The translations under genes were made by a program, and so were the position numbers. The notes below the pieces were generated by a model. It ran no database searches. It had not been told where the DNA came from and worked only from the letters and a program-made list of their open reading frames with translations. This document shows, one piece after another, positions 55,208 to 64,000 of a DNA stretch of 64,000 nt. The stretch comes from Planctomycetaceae bacterium (GTDB taxonomy: Bacteria > Planctomycetota > Planctomycetia > Planctomycetales > Planctomycetaceae). The stretch is taken from positions 1 to 64,000 of the forward strand of contig JANQRQ010000011.1 in the NCBI GenBank assembly GCA_028284485.1. Reading direction: 5' to 3'. How positions within the stretch are numbered: the stretch's first letter is position 1; every line of letters starts with the position of its first letter.

Positions 55208-55669
55208 CTAGTCAAGCCCGAATGTTCGAATGTATTCTAAAGCCGTAGGGTCGCGTTCGCCGCCGATAAAAGACTCATAGATCGATTCCAGAAACATCAC
55301 CTTGGTTGCGTGTGCCGCAAATACGAGAGCCGTCAAAAGCCGTGCCTTGCGGAACTCTGCCTCTGCCCGATGCATATCTTCGGGACTCCGATTGTCGTTG
55401 CCATTTTCGTCGTCCCAGATATCGAGGTAGTTTTCATCGGCCTCATCAGCAGCTGTTTGCAACCGTTCCCGCAAGTCCTTTGGCACTTTTTCTCTTCGGC
55501 GTAACAACGAAATCGTCTCGTCTGCGATTGCGTTATCGAATGAAGCGAATTCTTTGCCCCGTTCGTAAATCCAAATAGCAAGTTCATGTAGTTGAGAAGT
55601 GTTCAATACACGTAGGTGCTTGGCTACTTTCTTCAGGTCGGCGTCCCAAGATACTCGTGTCTCTTCCAT
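55208..55669 (-). CDS. Hypothetical protein, helical
   Basis: The ATG at 55669 is chosen because the frame upstream reads through a palindromic repeat (55693-55716). The 153-residue protein is mainly helical, with paired charges (LRRREKVPKDLRERLQTAADE). No family is recognised. It lies between two copies of the GTGCGTGC palindrome. Could be a remnant or mobile-element cargo; no evidence decides. Confidence 0.55.
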   Translation of the reverse strand: MEETRVSWDADLKKVAKHLRVLNTSQLHELAIWIYERGKEFASFDNAIADETISLLRRREKVPKDLRERLQTAADEADENYLDIWDDENGNDNRSPEDMHRAEAEFRKARLLTALVFAAHATKVMFLESIYESFIGGERDPTALEYIRTFGLD

Positions 55670-56243
55670 TGCGCATTGCCTTGAACACGATTGGTACGTG
55701 CAAGCACGCACCCTACTTTCTGATGCGTGCAATCATGCACGCGACATTCCGCTTCAACAGCTCCGATTCGACAAACTTGCGCAACACGCCATCGCGTTTG
55801 AACTTGCACATCAGAATGGGGACGTCCGGAATGATCGGAAGACGCGGCGCATTCGAATCGATTGTAACAAGCGGCAGGTCTGTTTCGCGCTAAGGGCAGC
55901 GAAATCGGTACGGCCGTTACAATCGAAAGAGTCTTCCAGCGGTTTCGGGGGCACATCGCAAGTTCGTTCATCGAAACTCTTTTGTCGCCTGAGGATGGAC
56001 GATTACCCTAAACACCGGCCAACAGTGGACGACTCGCTGCAAACTAAGGAAGGGCTGCATTTTTTGCTTCGCAGGCGATTTTGTTGCGACAGGGGAATTC
56101 AACTGCCGACCTGCTGCCGCGAATGTTTGCGGGAATGCCAAATTGAAGATATCGGCGGCGAACAGCCACGCTACCCAGTTGGACGATTACCCGTTCTGAG
56201 CGGATCGCCCTCCGGTTGATCCGAAGGAGAAGGAGTTCATCAG
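55670..56243. other. Intergenic stretch before csrA
   Basis: No gene is supported on either strand. It holds the palindrome at 55693 and GGAGAAGGAG before csrA. Confidence 0.5.
55693..55716. repeat. GTGCGTGC-type palindrome
   Basis: GGTACGTGCAAGCACGCACC then CTACTTTCTG; the flank TTTCTG matches the copy at 55020. Confidence 0.65.
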
Positions 56244-56495
56244 ATGCTTGTATTGTCGAGACAACGCGACGAGAGCATCATCATCGGAGACAACATCGTC
56301 CTGACGGTCGTTGATATCCGTGGCGACAAAGTTCGCCTGGGCATCGACGCTCCCAAGGAAGTACCCGTTCATAGGCAGGAAGTCTACGAAGCCATCCAGC
56401 GTGAGAACATGAGGGAAGCGGAAGCCAACTCGAATAACGCTCCCGCAGTCTCCAACGATCCTCAAACGTCGCCTGGCACCAACCCTTCCGTCTGA
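56244..56495 (+). CDS. csrA: Carbon storage regulator CsrA
   Basis: CsrA is a small RNA-binding regulator that blocks or protects mRNAs at GGA sites. The start MLVLSRQRDESIIIGDNIVLTV and the RNA-binding end GIDAPKEVPVHRQEVYEAIQRE are canonical. The 83 residues include a polar tail. AGGAG lies about 8 bases before the ATG. In many bacteria it controls flagellin and carbon metabolism. It is followed by a clear terminator, so it is transcribed alone. It sits beside a glycan cluster on the other strand. Confidence 0.95.
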   Translation: MLVLSRQRDESIIIGDNIVLTVVDIRGDKVRLGIDAPKEVPVHRQEVYEAIQRENMREAEANSNNAPAVSNDPQTSPGTNPSV

Positions 56496-56683: not shown

Positions 56684-57394
56684 TCAGAATCCAAATCCCA
56701 ATAGCGAGATGACTGGTTCGAACCGTTCGCTAAGACCGATCTGCTGAGAAATCGAAAGCTCTTCGCTCCAGCTACCAACTGTTGGCCGCAGCAATTCTCC
56801 ATCAGCAAGATGGCCGCCATCAATCCGGCCCTGTGCTCCATCGGTCACCGCCGCACCAAAACCGTCTGGTGAACACGAGGTCGACTGCACGTCGAGACTG
56901 TCATCGTTTGCGACCGCTTGCGCGATCTCCTCGGCCCGCTCCAGGTTCAGAAGGCGACCCAATCGGGATGCCATTTGAAACACAATTGCCTCAGCATGTT
57001 GTTCGAGGTGGGCATGCGGAATCAACATGATACCCGGCATTTGCACAACGTGCGGCAAGAATTGATAGGCCGAAATAGCGGTCTGTTGGGCTTGTTGAAA
57101 CGTCAAATTGCGGTTGCGCATCAAGCGGACCACAACGTCGCGTGGATCGCGATAATGGAAGAACGGCCTGACGTATCCCTGTTTCGCTAATTCGCAAGCC
57201 GCGGGAGTCACGTTGTGGAACTGAACCAGAACGTTTTCGTTCGCGTCGAGCGACTGCAGGCAACTGTCGACTTCGGAAGCGCCAGCCGGCGAAACAGTTC
57301 GCAGTGGAAATTGTTCCCGGTCGGCAATCTTTTCGAATACTTGCGCACACCAGTCCGTACCTGACTCGGGAATTCCCATCGCGAAAATAATCAT
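56684..57394 (-). CDS. Sulfotransferase-like protein
   Basis: 236 residues with the start MIIFAMGIPESGTDWCAQVFEKIA, where GIPESGTDW matches the 5'-phosphosulfate loop of PAPS-dependent sulfotransferases. The second PAPS motif is YRDPRDVVVRLM. Both suggest transfer of sulfate to a sugar or peptide. AAGGAC lies about 9 bases before the ATG. It is the last gene of a glycan cluster, 153 bases after the preceding gene. The acceptor is unknown. Confidence 0.8.
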   Translation of the reverse strand: MIIFAMGIPESGTDWCAQVFEKIADREQFPLRTVSPAGASEVDSCLQSLDANENVLVQFHNVTPAACELAKQGYVRPFFHYRDPRDVVVRLMRNRNLTFQQAQQTAISAYQFLPHVVQMPGIMLIPHAHLEQHAEAIVFQMASRLGRLLNLERAEEIAQAVANDDSLDVQSTSCSPDGFGAAVTDGAQGRIDGGHLADGELLRPTVGSWSEELSISQQIGLSERFEPVISLLGFGF

Positions 57395-57547
57395 GCCGAT
57401 TGTGTCCTTGCGCAGTGTCTCTGACGTCGGAATATCCGACTTCCTATTGTCTGTATCGGCTCTCGCACCACACCGATATGAACCGCAGAACCGGTTCGCT
57501 CGAAAAAATCGTCAATTTCGAACCTTGGAGACCGGCGGGCGACGCTT

Positions 57548-59074
57548 TTACACGCTGGGTATGACCGCACCGTTCTTCTGGTCGCAGTGGTGTGCAAACG
57601 AGAGCCGATGCAACGCGTCGGCAACTCGGTTGAGAACCGGTCGCCAGTCGCCGAATGCGTCTTGGCGGTACGTTGTAACGCTGCGATACCATTGGCACGA
57701 TTTGGCTGCCAATCCCCAGCGCCAATCGGGGACTGCCGGCAGGATCGCCCAGACCGGGATTCCCAATGCCCCGGCCAGGTGGACCGTCGAATTGTCCACG
57801 GAAATGATGACGTCGAGTGCAGCAATTTGAGCGGCAAAACCATCGAGGTCTTCCAGCGGGTTCGAATCATCCCAGTGGTGAATGACAACACCTTGTTGCT
57901 GGAATAGTTTCGAGATCTCCTCACGAGTCTCGCCATACTGCAGATTGATGAAACTCAATCCCGGCACTGAGAAGACCGGTGTCCATTGATCGAGTGAGAT
58001 CGTGCGCCGCGCATGAACGATGCGAGATTTGCCACCACGCCACGATATGCCGACTTTCAATCCATGCCCCAGCGAATCGAAGCGTCGCCGCCACTGCAGA
58101 TGCTTTCGAGGGTCGACTTGCAGAAACTGTTCTCGACGCGGAAACGAATCGATAGTGGGGCGGAAGATGCCGGGCAAGCTTCCGACAGCAATTTGAAAAT
58201 CAAAGTCCGTCGATTGCAGTTGGGCTTGATCGAGCGACGTCCCGTTCGGAAGAAACCTGGCTTTAGGGAATGAACGGACAAACAGAGGACAAAGCCGGGA
58301 ATCGCTGATAACAACACAGCTGCCGGCAGAGCGGATCAGGTCGGGCAAGCACGAAGCGAACATGATTTCATCGCCGATGCCCTGTTCGGGATAGACAAAG
58401 ACACGCTTGCCGACGAGTTGCTGGCCGTCCCATTCCGCGATTCCAGCGACTGGTTGGCCGCCGAAGGATTGCTTGCGCCATTCGTATTCGGGCCATCCCT
58501 GCCCGTAGTCACTAAGTAGTAACCGGGCTGTGGCCCGATTGTAGTGTGCGTCGGCGTATCCGGGATCGATTTCGAGAGCACGGTCGAAGCTGCCGAGGGC
58601 CGCGTCGAATTGCCGCAAGTACTTCTGCGTGATTCCGAGGTTGTTGTGTGCTTGCGCGAAGTCACTGCGAATGTTAATCGCACATTGAAACTGCTCAGCA
58701 GCCCGTTCGTACAGGCCCTTGTCCTTCAACAGCGTTCCCAGGTTAAAGGCGCCTTCGGCGTAGCCCGGGTCGATTGCGAGCGCCGTTTCAAAACAATGGA
58801 CCGATTCGTCCAGATTCCCCAGAGATTTGTGAGCCGCCGCCAGGTTGTTGTGGTACTCGGCGACACGAGGATTCCTCTGGATGGCGGCTTCGATGTGTTC
58901 GACGGCTGCTGTATATTTCCGCTGCTGTAGGGCGGCGACACCCAGAAGATGACAGGCATCGGAGTTTGCCGAATCGATGCGCAGGACGCGACGATAAATC
59001 GCTTCGGCATCTTTGACCTCTCCGCGTTGTTGATGTTGAAGTCCCTGCTTCAACAGATCGGATACGTTGCTCAT
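57548..59074 (-). CDS. TPR-glycosyltransferase paralog 1
   Basis: 508 residues. About five TPR units fill residues 1-205 (for example CHLLGVAALQQRKYTAAVEHIEAAIQRNP). A C-terminal domain of the GT9/GT41-like type follows, with YPEQGIGDEIMFASCLPDL, GISWRGGKSR and SVDNSTVHLAGALGIPVW. The same three landmarks are in the two paralogs at 60229 and 62091. TPR parts usually hold the protein acceptor or partners. AAGGACTC lies about 9 bases before the ATG. Predicted to transfer a sugar to a glycan or protein; substrates unknown. Confidence 0.87.
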   Translation of the reverse strand: MSNVSDLLKQGLQHQQRGEVKDAEAIYRRVLRIDSANSDACHLLGVAALQQRKYTAAVEHIEAAIQRNPRVAEYHNNLAAAHKSLGNLDESVHCFETALAIDPGYAEGAFNLGTLLKDKGLYERAAEQFQCAINIRSDFAQAHNNLGITQKYLRQFDAALGSFDRALEIDPGYADAHYNRATARLLLSDYGQGWPEYEWRKQSFGGQPVAGIAEWDGQQLVGKRVFVYPEQGIGDEIMFASCLPDLIRSAGSCVVISDSRLCPLFVRSFPKARFLPNGTSLDQAQLQSTDFDFQIAVGSLPGIFRPTIDSFPRREQFLQVDPRKHLQWRRRFDSLGHGLKVGISWRGGKSRIVHARRTISLDQWTPVFSVPGLSFINLQYGETREEISKLFQQQGVVIHHWDDSNPLEDLDGFAAQIAALDVIISVDNSTVHLAGALGIPVWAILPAVPDWRWGLAAKSCQWYRSVTTYRQDAFGDWRPVLNRVADALHRLSFAHHCDQKNGAVIPSV

Positions 59075-59130
59075 CGTCAGAGAGTCCTTTCACTGACTAT
59101 TTGCGTGAAGTCGTTTTTGTGAAACAGTCA

Positions 59131-60222
59131 TCAGGCGGCGTGGCGAATTCCCTCGAAGTTGAGTTCGGCTCGCTGTCGCAACTCGCCGATGATGGCGTCA
59201 TCGACCGGCCCCTGTCGTAGTACTTCGGCGGTCCGCTGCAAAAGTGTTTCGAGAAAACGATCGTCGCCGTAGTGAATGGGGGATGCCAGTTGCAGGCTTT
59301 CGGTAAGCGCCCGGATCTTCGGCGTATTGCTTTCCATGATGACGCACGGTGTCCCCAACGACGCGGATGCAATCGTATGGTGAAATCGACCCGACACAAA
59401 TAAATCGGCCGATGCGATGCAGTCGAACCATTCGGACAGTGTTAGGGCTTCGATGTGTTGCCATTGTTGGAATCGCTGAGCACGTAAGTTTTCGATGAAA
59501 TGGCAATCATCAGCAGACGGATTGGCCAAAGCGCCGCTGAGGACAGCAACCTCGAAGCCTTGGGCCGCCATCTGTTCCATATAGTTGGCGAGGTCGGGCA
59601 TACGTTTGTGGTCAAATGCGACAGAACCGGCGATGACCAACTTTTTTCCGCCCGCTCGCGGGCTGGGTTGATAATCTTCGTGGGCTGTTAGCGGAAGACA
59701 ATCGAAACTCAATTCAGCCTGCACGCCCAACTGGCGCATCAGTTTATGACTGACGTGCTCGCGAATTGCGACGTAGTCGAGCTTTTGATAAACGCCGCGG
59801 TATATCTGAAACGCCAGGCTATGTCGCGGCTTAACGACGTTTTCGGGATAGGCGGAGTGGTTAATCATATGCACCGATTTGTTGAGGTGGACCTTGGCGG
59901 CATAGGCCAAATACAACAATGAGAGCGAGGCGGGTCGCACGTGGTGCATGGTCCCTTCGCCGTTAATCACGACAACATCCGCCGCGTCGATGGCCGCGAT
60001 GATCTCCGGATGCTGACGACTGGCCTTTTGAAAGAACTGGGGGTCGTCGAATTCGTGGATCTTTTCCGGCAGCGTGTCGAAACCGTATACTTGGTTGATT
60101 GGTACCAGATCCAACGAGTATCCGATTTCGCGAATTCTTTTATGAATGGCTGAACTTGTGGCCGTACAGCCCCAGTGATACCAGGCATACGTATCGTTCA
60201 ACAGGACGGCGCGTCGGGACAT
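59131..60222 (-). CDS. Polysaccharide pyruvyl transferase family protein
   Basis: 363 residues. The N-terminus NDTYAWYHWGCTATSSAIHKRI, VVINGEGTMHH and the late SGRFHHTIASASLGTPCVIMESN follow the PF04230-type family (WcaK/CsaB). These enzymes add ketal pyruvate to sugars of exopolysaccharide or cell wall. AAGGGTAA, shared with the upstream gene's stop codon region, lies about 9 bases before the ATG, only 6 bases after the paralog-2 stop. Confidence 0.87.
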   Translation of the reverse strand: MSRRAVLLNDTYAWYHWGCTATSSAIHKRIREIGYSLDLVPINQVYGFDTLPEKIHEFDDPQFFQKASRQHPEIIAAIDAADVVVINGEGTMHHVRPASLSLLYLAYAAKVHLNKSVHMINHSAYPENVVKPRHSLAFQIYRGVYQKLDYVAIREHVSHKLMRQLGVQAELSFDCLPLTAHEDYQPSPRAGGKKLVIAGSVAFDHKRMPDLANYMEQMAAQGFEVAVLSGALANPSADDCHFIENLRAQRFQQWQHIEALTLSEWFDCIASADLFVSGRFHHTIASASLGTPCVIMESNTPKIRALTESLQLASPIHYGDDRFLETLLQRTAEVLRQGPVDDAIIGELRQRAELNFEGIRHAA

Positions 60223-60228
60223 AATCGT

Positions 60229-62094
60229 TTACCCTTCGGGATATTGCGTGGGTGTTTGTATCTGTTTCGATACCTTCGAGTGTGCGGTTGGTTGCGCATT
60301 TACTTCCGAAACAAGCTTTGGAAGTTGGTCGTGCACTTCATTGAACAGGGATTGCCAGTCTCCGAAAACCGGTTGACGAAATAGTCGCAAGCTCGGATAC
60401 CAAACCGAGTCATTGCGATCGAGCATCCAACGCCAGTCGGGAGAGAGCGGCAGTAAGACCCAAGTGGGTGTCCCCAGCGCGCCTGCCATGTGCACCGTCG
60501 AATTGTCGATCGAAATTACCAGGTCAAGCGCAGCGACTTGGGCGCAGAAACCGTCGAGATCCGTCAGTGGGTCAGCATCGGTCCAGTCATGGATGTCGAT
60601 GCCGTGTTGTTGGCGGAGTCGAAGTAGTTCCGCTTCGCATTCGCCGTACTGCAAATTGACAAATGCAGCGTCGGGGAACTTCAGCACGGGAATCCATTGG
60701 TTTAGTTCCGTCGACCGTAATCGCCGGGCGTCGCGGTCGTGACCGCCGCGCCAGGAAATGCCGATGACGATCGGTTTGCCCAAATTCTGAAATCGTTTTC
60801 GCCATGCTTCAACACGGACCGGGTCCGGGATGAGATAGGAAGTTTGCTTCGGGAAGGACTCGATGTTGTGTCGCGTAATATGCGGCAAGCTACCGATCGG
60901 AATCTGGGCGTCGACGGATGGCTCGACTTTCCCCGTGCTTGGATTTCGGGAGATCGGTCGCGACACGATTTGTACGTTGGGAAAGGAGCGAGCAAACAGC
61001 GCTCGAAGTCGGGGATCGCATTCGAGGACGCATTCGCCCACTAGCGGCAATACATCGGGAATGCACGAGGCAAACATGACTTCATCGCCGATACCTTGTT
61101 CGGCGTAGACGAGCAAACGGCACTTCTCGTCTGGCCGACCGTCCCACTTCGGTTCAGAAAGGTTTCGCGGTGTTGCTTGCGACTGCCAGCGCCAGTCGTG
61201 GTTCGCCCAACCGTGGCCAAGATCGCCCAGCAACAGCAGCCCCAATGCGTGCTTTAAGTTTGCTTCAGCGTGATTAGGGGCAATTTCCAGTGCCTGGCGG
61301 TAACACTCCATGGCCGATTTAATGTCGCCAGTTTCCTGGTAGGCCGTTCCCAAGTTGTTCCAGGCAGTGACGTAATCGGACTTTAGCGAGAGAGCACGGC
61401 GGTAGGCGGCGAATGCTTCGGTATATTGCCCGGAGTGTTTCAAGGAGTTTCCGAGATTGTTATGTGTTTCCGCACAGTTTGGATCAAGCTGGATCGACCG
61501 CTGAAATGCATCAATGGCCGATTCTGTTTGTTCCAGTTCGTCCAACGCGTTTCCCAAATTGTTAAGAATGTCGGCGGAATTGGGGTCGAGTTGCATTGCC
61601 TGTTCATAGGCGGCGATTGCTTCCTGTAGACGGCCCTGTTTCTTGAACGCAATCCCCAAGTTGTTAAGAGCGTCGCGATAGTCGGGCCGCGCTTGAATAG
61701 CCTGCTGATAGCTTTCAATTGCAGAGTCCAGCAATCCTTGTTGCCCCCACACGACTCCCAGGTTGAAGTGTGCTTCGGCATAGGATGCATCGAGACGAAC
61801 CGCATCTTGGAAGCTCTGTGTGGTCGCGTTGAGCTCACCCAGCGTCCAATAGGCGGCGGCCAGATTGTTATGAAAGTCCGCCACAGCGGGATTCTGTGAA
61901 ATCGCCTGGCGGATGTATTCGACGGCTGATTTCGCGTCGCCACTTTGATGCCTTGCCACGCCGAGCAAGTGCAATGCGTCGGCATTGCCGGGATCGATGC
62001 GCAGGATCTGACGATAGAGTCTTGTGGATTCCTCCAGCCGCCCGGCTTGGTGGTGGGCCAACGCCATATGGAGTTGCTTAGCGACCACGGTCAT
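60229..62094 (-). CDS. TPR-glycosyltransferase paralog 2
   Basis: 621 residues. About eight TPR units fill the first half (ALHLLGVARHQSGDAKSAVEYIRQAISQNP and similar). The C-terminal domain carries YAEQGIGDEVMFASCIPDVL, GISWRGGHDRDAR and SIDNSTVHMAGALGTPTWVLLP. The ATG at 62094 overlaps the TGA of the upstream paralog by four bases (ATGA), a sign of coupled translation, which decides this start over the longer frame. Confidence 0.88.
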   Translation of the reverse strand: MTVVAKQLHMALAHHQAGRLEESTRLYRQILRIDPGNADALHLLGVARHQSGDAKSAVEYIRQAISQNPAVADFHNNLAAAYWTLGELNATTQSFQDAVRLDASYAEAHFNLGVVWGQQGLLDSAIESYQQAIQARPDYRDALNNLGIAFKKQGRLQEAIAAYEQAMQLDPNSADILNNLGNALDELEQTESAIDAFQRSIQLDPNCAETHNNLGNSLKHSGQYTEAFAAYRRALSLKSDYVTAWNNLGTAYQETGDIKSAMECYRQALEIAPNHAEANLKHALGLLLLGDLGHGWANHDWRWQSQATPRNLSEPKWDGRPDEKCRLLVYAEQGIGDEVMFASCIPDVLPLVGECVLECDPRLRALFARSFPNVQIVSRPISRNPSTGKVEPSVDAQIPIGSLPHITRHNIESFPKQTSYLIPDPVRVEAWRKRFQNLGKPIVIGISWRGGHDRDARRLRSTELNQWIPVLKFPDAAFVNLQYGECEAELLRLRQQHGIDIHDWTDADPLTDLDGFCAQVAALDLVISIDNSTVHMAGALGTPTWVLLPLSPDWRWMLDRNDSVWYPSLRLFRQPVFGDWQSLFNEVHDQLPKLVSEVNAQPTAHSKVSKQIQTPTQYPEG

Positions 62095-64000
62095 GAGCAC
62101 CCTCCATGTTGACTTCCGAAAGCGGGCCCAGTGCTGGTTCTGCGCGAATCGTGAATTAACGTCGAGAGCTCTGCTGCGACCTGTTCGATAACCGCAGGCC
62201 AATCACCGGCGCTTGGTTGTCGAAAGAGCCGCATGCCGGGGTACCAGGGCGAATCACTGCGCTCTAATTGCCAACGCCAGTCGGGCACGAACGGTAGCAA
62301 TGTCCAAACCGGTGTTCCCAGCGCGCCCGCCATATGAACCGTTGTGTTATCAATGGAGATCACCAGGTCGAGCGCGGCGATCAATGCGGCGAAGTCATCG
62401 AGGTTGGCGAGCGGATCGCAGTCGGGAAGGCTCTGAATCGTGGCAAAATCGTTCTCATGCATCTTTGACAATTCGGATTGGCAGTCGCCGTACTGCAAAT
62501 TGACGAACGAGGCGCCCGGTACGTTGAAGATGGGCATCCATTGCTCGAGTGTAATGGATCGCTTTCGCTTCGCATTGCGATTCTTGCCGCCCCTCCACGA
62601 GATGCCGATGCGAAGCTGTGGTTTGCGTTGCAGTTGATTCTTGAAGTGGGCAATGCGCTGTTGATCGGGCTGCAGAAACCTGAAAGGAACGTCCTCATCG
62701 TCGGCATTGGGGAGCACCAGCCCCGGCAGACTACCCATGGCCACCTGCAGATCGACGTTTGGAATGACCTTTCGAGAGTGGGAGTCGCGTGGGATCGGCC
62801 TCGCAACAACTTGGGAATCAGGAAACGATCGTTTGAACAATGGAACCAGTCGCGTGTCGCACTCGATCACGCAGGCAGCGGTTTGCTGTAGAACCTTTGG
62901 GATGCAAGCAGAGAACATGATTTCGTCGCCGACGCCTTGTTCGCCGTAAACAAGTAATTTCTGTCCGGCAAGTGTCGAACCATCCCAAGCCGGTTCCACA
63001 AAACTGCGGGGCTCGAATTCGCTCAACCAACGCGATTCGTATTCCGGCCATCCTTGTTTGAAGTTGCCCGCCAATAGCCAAGCCAACGAACGATTGAATC
63101 GAGTTTCTGCAATCCCGTCTGGATGCGACCCAGCGGCATTGCCGGCAGGTGCATTGGAACGGATGTCGTTTCCAGATTCGTCTCGTGTTGCAGTACGAGT
63201 TGCGTGTTCGATGACACGCCCATAACAATCGACGGCTCGTCCGATGTGTCCTTGCTGCTCCAATGCGACGCCAAGATTCGTACACGCTTCAATATTTTGC
63301 GGCTCGGTCGCGAGAACTCGTTCATAGCAATCGATGGCTTCGTCCAGCCGGCCGTCATCTTTGAGAGCAACACCAAGATTCGTCATTGCCCGCAAATGAT
63401 GGGGATCGAGGTTTAGGGCCTGCTTGAAATGCGAGATGGCGGATTCACATTCCCCTTGTTCGTGGAGGAGATTGGCTAAGTTGTAGTGCGCTTCCACGAA
63501 TTGCGGGTTCAGCTGCAACGCGCGATCATAACAAAGCCGAGCTTCGGCGATTCGATCTTGATCCTTGTAGGTGACTCCCAGGTTGTTGTGCGCCTCAACA
63601 TATGCCGCATCGATTTGCAGAGCTTGTTGGTAGCAATCGACAGCCAGACGCAAGTCGCCTTGGTCAGCCCGCAGATTCCCGAATGCAAACCAAGCCTTAG
63701 CGTATTGCGGCTGCATGCGAAGGGCCGACTCATAGCTGGCAATCGCGTCCCCCAGGCGTCCCAGTTTCTGCAGAGCGTCTCCACGTCGCAAATGGGCCTC
63801 GGGATTTGTATCGGTTTTGGCAATGATGCCGTCATAGCATGCCAGTGCCCGGTCATGACTGCCCGACCCCTGCAAGACGTCGCCCATTCCGAGCAACGAC
63901 TGTTCGTGATTGGGATTGTATTTGAGGACCTGCTCGTATGCGGCGATTGCGTCTTCCATTCGTCCGGCATCCCGCAAGACGGATGCCAGATTACAACCGT
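62091..64000 (-). CDS. TPR-glycosyltransferase paralog 3, cut by the window edge
   Basis: Only the C-terminal 636 residues are inside the window. The frame continues open to 64000 and reads through TPR helix sequence (NLASVLRDAGRMEDAI), so the true start lies beyond. At least seven TPRs are visible, then YGEQGVGDEIMFSACIPKVL, GISWRGGKNRNAKRKR and SIDNTTVHMAGALGTPVWTLLP. Its stop overlaps the start of paralog 2. Part of the same predicted operon. Confidence 0.88.
   Translation of the reverse strand, partial: GCNLASVLRDAGRMEDAIAAYEQVLKYNPNHEQSLLGMGDVLQGSGSHDRALACYDGIIAKTDTNPEAHLRRGDALQKLGRLGDAIASYESALRMQPQYAKAWFAFGNLRADQGDLRLAVDCYQQALQIDAAYVEAHNNLGVTYKDQDRIAEARLCYDRALQLNPQFVEAHYNLANLLHEQGECESAISHFKQALNLDPHHLRAMTNLGVALKDDGRLDEAIDCYERVLATEPQNIEACTNLGVALEQQGHIGRAVDCYGRVIEHATRTATRDESGNDIRSNAPAGNAAGSHPDGIAETRFNRSLAWLLAGNFKQGWPEYESRWLSEFEPRSFVEPAWDGSTLAGQKLLVYGEQGVGDEIMFSACIPKVLQQTAACVIECDTRLVPLFKRSFPDSQVVARPIPRDSHSRKVIPNVDLQVAMGSLPGLVLPNADDEDVPFRFLQPDQQRIAHFKNQLQRKPQLRIGISWRGGKNRNAKRKRSITLEQWMPIFNVPGASFVNLQYGDCQSELSKMHENDFATIQSLPDCDPLANLDDFAALIAALDLVISIDNTTVHMAGALGTPVWTLLPFVPDWRWQLERSDSPWYPGMRLFRQPSAGDWPAVIEQVAAELSTLIHDSRRTSTGPAFGSQHGGCS

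Follow-up and report, generated by a model that had tools for sequence, protein, structure and literature searches.

A run of TPR glycosyltransferase genes with pyruvyl- and sulfotransferase genes beside flagellin in a Planctomycetaceae bacterium points to flagellin glycosylation

We describe a run of genes for four TPR glycosyltransferases (TPR-GTs, here T1 to T4), a pyruvyltransferase, a sulfotransferase and a GT29-like protein, which is likely to be a cytoplasmic flagellin-glycosylation island acting much as FlmG does, with a GT9-like catalytic domain and acidic decoration of the glycan. The run crosses the end of the window (the whole 64,000-nucleotide stretch of DNA that was analyzed) and lies on a 150-kb contig of a 7.7-Mb genome that is 91% complete in 363 contigs. 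Flagellin glycosylation had been offered as a testable idea by an earlier, sequence-only reading of the window, and it gains support from adjacency to fliC, fliD and fliS, recurrence of the arrangement across phyla and GT-B structure models.

The seven genes all lie on the minus strand and span 11.5 kb, with spacing from overlap to 153 bp. The last of them encodes the sulfotransferase-like protein (56684..57394, 236 aa) and is preceded by T1 (57548..59074, 508 aa), the polysaccharide pyruvyltransferase (59131..60222, 363 aa), T2 (60229..62094, 621 aa) and T3 (62091-64730, 879 aa), which the window end cuts at position 64000. Beyond the window, the same contig carries the fourth paralogue, T4 (64816-67605, 929 aa), and the small open reading frame of the GT29-like protein (67595-68173). 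The open frame of T2 extends over 60229-62202, and its length of 621 aa is counted from an ATG at 62094 that is preceded by GGAGG and overlaps the stop of T3 (ATGA). The sequence-only reading had described tight spacing with a pyruvyltransferase, followed by a sulfotransferase, just as found here; its count of three TPR-GTs is right for the window, but becomes four for the run. It had also proposed looking past 64000 for flagellin, and this revealed plus-strand fliC (68778-70583, divergent from the run), fliD (70895-73987) and fliS (74146-74607). Only 604 bp separate fliC from the run, and the glycosyltransferase genes are thus contiguous with fliC, fliD and fliS, with two sugar-modifying enzymes, the pyruvyltransferase and the sulfotransferase, inside the same run. 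The 604-bp region contains only weak matches to sigma-28 promoter and CsrA sites. By GC content (55.1% for the run versus 53.5-54.3%), the run does not stand out as foreign.

All TPR-GTs of the run combine N-terminal TPRs with a C-terminal GT-B domain, and the motifs shared by T1 to T4 sit in the C-terminal domain. The motif GISWRGG, previously noted in three paralogues, is common to all four, while the other two motifs broaden to [PAG]EQG[IV]GDE, which comes first, and DN[ST]TVH[LM]AGA[LV]G. Motif residues that do not vary within this protein family are kept in every copy, and none looks dead. Numbers of TPR units do differ, as had been claimed, but rather than about 5, 8 and at least 7 they rise from T1 to T4 (2, 6, 10 and 14 by a simple signature scan, which undercounts). 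The glycosyltransferase domains share 43-47% mutual identity, far above chance, and each is about as close to proteins from other phyla as to its paralogues. Recent tandem duplication is unsupported, given this level of identity and the lack of a common grouping in a tree that is poorly resolved at that point. At another locus, a single 1,827-aa open frame (L129:3-5486) carries three glycosyltransferase domains of this type.

Structure models, suggested earlier as a check for sugar-nucleotide pockets, predict for the C-terminal domain the GT-B fold of sugar-nucleotide enzymes. An AlphaFold2 model of the T2 domain, built with 34 sequences, reached a pLDDT of 92 and a pTM of 0.89, and its first PDB matches were 3tov, 1psw and 2h1h (E values of 9e-9 to 5e-7). 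In order, the matches were a Veillonella GT9 enzyme, WaaF, WaaC with an ADP-heptose analogue and then TibC, with O-GlcNAc transferase a weaker match than GT9. TibC is from a family of heptosyltransferases whose substrates are autotransporter proteins. WaaC, WaaF and TibC, all GT9, are the best fold matches, but at a TM-score of about 0.5 the relation is one of fold and not a close one; identity is 9-13%, the matched chains lack a TPR array and their gene context is different. Among profile and sequence searches, Pfam Glyco_transf_9 scored 16.4 bits for T1 and 17.6 bits for T4, both under the cut-off of 22, and a PDB sequence search with the glycosyltransferase domain or the pyruvyltransferase returned no convincing relative. 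Run genome-wide, Pfam Glyco_transf_41 (PF13844) had no match on the contig of the run, while it did find the GT41 TPR-GTs of relatives. On the strength of the model, we are confident that the C-terminal domain is predicted to be a GT-B enzyme of the sugar-nucleotide type, with GT9 heptosyltransferases nearest to it in fold.

The pyruvyltransferase is a clear member of PF04230 (E = 4.5e-20), nearest to CsaB. Pfam alone gave no significant match for the sulfotransferase (E = 0.17), which does carry the 5'- and 3'-phosphate binding motifs PESGTDW and RDPRDVV, and a homologue 38% identical to it passes Pfam with 28.0 bits against a cut-off of 22. Its AlphaFold2 model is of moderate confidence (mean pLDDT 67 in the best of five), and the PDB matches listed for it are PAPS-dependent sulfotransferases or relatives in fold (best E = 1e-6). 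Because motifs, Pfam-passing homologue and predicted fold agree, identification of the 236-aa protein as a divergent sulfotransferase is supported. Genes for the pyruvyltransferase, the sulfotransferase and the GT29-like protein are rare in the family: among the other 60 family genomes, two have a homologue of the sulfotransferase, in each case adjoining TPR-GTs, and the sole homologue of the pyruvyltransferase adjoins two TPR-GTs and fliD-fliS.

We also surveyed the linkage with flagellin across 61 genomes of the family, 48 of which have flagellin-family matches. The GT9-like domain is present in 21 genomes and GT41 domains in 30, and the former is concentrated among flagellin carriers (20 of 48, versus 1 of 13 non-carriers; Fisher P = 0.024). 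When GT9-like and GT41 loci from the 61 genomes were pooled, seven TPR-GT loci fell within 10 kb of fliC (in G000, the genome of the window, and in G010, G020, G023, G026, G038 and G042) compared with 0.27 expected under random placement (P = 1.7e-8). Most flagellin-bearing genomes of the family have no TPR-GT beside flagellin. Where the genes do meet, arrangements vary: G010 has a GT9-like TPR-GT ahead of flagellin and TPR-GT41s on either side, TPR-GTs adjoin fliD-fliS in G051 and G002, and the order in G038 is fliC, a TPR-GT41-methyltransferase, a homologue of the sulfotransferase, two open reading frames, fliD and fliS. G023 has csrA on one side of fliC and, directly after fliC on the other, a tandem of five TPR-GT41 genes (L204, G023:C46:64001-84000), which repeats the layout with another glycosyltransferase family.

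Across phyla, scanning some 85,000 species genomes yielded 79 homologous loci from other genomes. Genes similar to flagellin C-terminal, fliD or fliS were found in 16 of these, from several phyla and mostly with the TPR-GT less than 600 bp away, and some flagellar gene was found in 25, a count that omits two loci where the sole match was to a sigma-54 regulator. Binomial P values for these counts assumed backgrounds of 1% and 4% and are hence only indicative. Homology to the pyruvyltransferase was more frequent in flagellar loci (9 of 25) than in the others (5 of 54; P = 0.009). In seven cases (L142, L147, L149, L153, L154, L158 and L194), the protein adjoining fliC is a TPR-GT fused to a homologue of the pyruvyltransferase (E values of 1e-82 to 3e-30), and such fusions stand within fliC-fliD-fliS clusters. 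For example, a 1,109-aa protein (L142:6795-10124) next to fliS, fliD and fliC joins TPRs, a GT9-like domain, a pyruvyltransferase and a methyltransferase. The fusions are independent evidence that TPR-GT and pyruvyltransferase serve one pathway.

A competing explanation, which we regard as unlikely, is that the run builds or decorates a surface polysaccharide or several surface proteins, with adjacency to flagellin incidental or a matter of co-regulation. Pyruvyl- and sulfotransferases are indeed typical of exopolysaccharide loci, and TPR-GT homologues also occur away from flagellar genes. Among the stretches examined, no flagellar gene was recognized beside four other TPR-GT copies of the same genome, beside betaproteobacterial runs of four to six TPR-GTs (L155, L163 and L172) or beside two pyruvyltransferase fusions from Zhongshania. 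Against this explanation, we recognized no Wzx, Wzy or Wza-like gene among the open reading frames around the run, two samples each show strong enrichment next to fliC, and the TPR-GT-pyruvyltransferase fusions lie in flagellin clusters. Conservation in the absence of flagellar genes, named in advance as evidence against a flagellin link, is therefore seen in part for the wider family.

The gene csrA (56244..56495, plus strand; PF02599, 91.6 bits) forms the other edge of the locus and faces the 3' end of the run; it is adjoined by a 174-aa protein (55208-55732) without a Pfam match. The sequence-only reading had taken csrA as a hint of flagellin. As the sole evidence for such a link we rejected it, because the genome has 11 CsrA-family matches, 10 of them above the cut-off, which is high by comparison with model bacteria, where CsrA is usually single-copy. 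The adjacency nevertheless counts, because a csrA-fliC neighborhood recurs in relatives: csrA is beside or near fliC in L043, L049, L054, L055, L100 and L108, and in G013 and G020 the order cstA-csrA-fliC is found with no such run. The order cstA-csrA-[run]-fliC at the present locus could thus be derived from cstA-csrA-fliC by insertion.

A different concern is whether the TPR-GTs are simply FlmG orthologues that use CMP-pseudaminic acid, as in the known pathway of Caulobacter. The GT29-like protein would fit this account, since GT29 is named for sialyltransferases. FlmG of Caulobacter crescentus is a cytoplasmic TPR and GT-B flagellin glycosyltransferase; to bind flagellin it requires its TPR domain, which also suffices on its own, and its modification of flagellin depends on pseudaminic acid (PMC7591256). 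T1 to T4 resemble it in having TPRs at the N terminus and GT-B at the C terminus, as compared by domain plan, and in their proposed role (PMC7591256). However, one such enzyme is described in Caulobacter versus four paralogues here, and the glycosyltransferase fold is GT9-like. We also found no nonulosonate synthase, the sole NeuB-family match in the genome (91% complete) being a DAHP synthase, so that pseudaminic acid is an unlikely donor, as is sialic acid. That the TPR-GTs are FlmG orthologues of the known pathway, using CMP-pseudaminic acid, is very improbable. ADP-heptose is one candidate donor, and an HldE-like protein in a 516-aa frame scored 299 bits, under the cut-off of 345. Extra Ser/Thr was not seen in the flagellin (24%, versus 21-29% in relatives without the run).

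Returning to the island interpretation, we infer flagellin as the acceptor, an O-linkage, the order of reactions, the kind of sugar donor, and pyruvylation and sulfation of the glycan. The four TPR-GTs would be cytoplasmic and, by analogy with FlmG, their TPR arrays would capture flagellin ahead of export. The GT9-like domain would then take a sugar from a soluble nucleotide-sugar and transfer it to Ser/Thr of the flagellin variable region, or add the next sugar, after which the pyruvyltransferase and sulfotransferase would add pyruvyl-ketal and sulfate, so that the coat would be acidic but contain no nonulosonic acids. The dissimilarity of the four glycosyltransferase domains in sequence suggests that they may serve different linkages or sites. 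A variant of the island interpretation, and not exclusive of it, is that attachment of sugar to protein falls to just one or two TPR-GTs, with the rest lengthening the glycan or serving as chaperone-like export adaptors. We see this as possible but incline against it: the strong differences in TPR length, mutual identities of 43-47% and comparable closeness to proteins of other phyla would all suit such a division, while retention of the invariant family residues in all four copies speaks against it.

The sequence-only reading knew of no described system with this combination of genes. The general kind is in fact known, both as glycosyltransferase islands at flagellin loci and as TPR and GT-B flagellin enzymes (PMC4875605, PMC7591256). 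Flagellin-glycosylation islands of Enterobacteriaceae combine glycosyltransferases with enzymes that modify sugars, sit as insertions at the flagellin locus and bear hallmarks of horizontal transfer; they include GT41 with methyltransferase domains, like the protein beside fliC in G038, but use GT2, GT25 or GT41 rather than a GT9-like domain, and the words pyruvyl, sulfotransferase and TPR are absent from the text of that study (PMC4875605). Maf glycosyltransferases also modify flagellin in the cytoplasm before export (PMC4065374), but belong to another protein family and use nonulosonic acid donors. What stands of the claim is that the literature searched, which leaves out most subscription papers and so leaves novelty unproved, yielded no GT9-like TPR class, no TPR-GT-pyruvyltransferase fusion, no sulfotransferase at a bacterial flagellin locus and no study of flagellin glycosylation in Planctomycetota.

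More broadly, TPR-GT9-like proteins may constitute a widespread, undescribed group of cytoplasmic flagellin O-glycosyltransferases that differ from Maf and need no nonulosonic acids, with acidity supplied as pyruvyl ketals and sulfate by enzymes that are fused to them or adjacent, and with differences in TPR length selecting different flagellin sites or glycan steps; we hold this generalization tentatively, at somewhat less than even confidence. The findings point to a large group of flagellin-modifying enzymes that have yet to be studied and whose glycosyltransferase domain is not the one described for FlmG or Maf. Modules of TPR and glycosyltransferase, some fused to pyruvyl- or methyltransferases, would be useful for site-specific glycosylation of proteins in the cytoplasm, and the acidic decorations could stand in for sialic-acid-like sugars.
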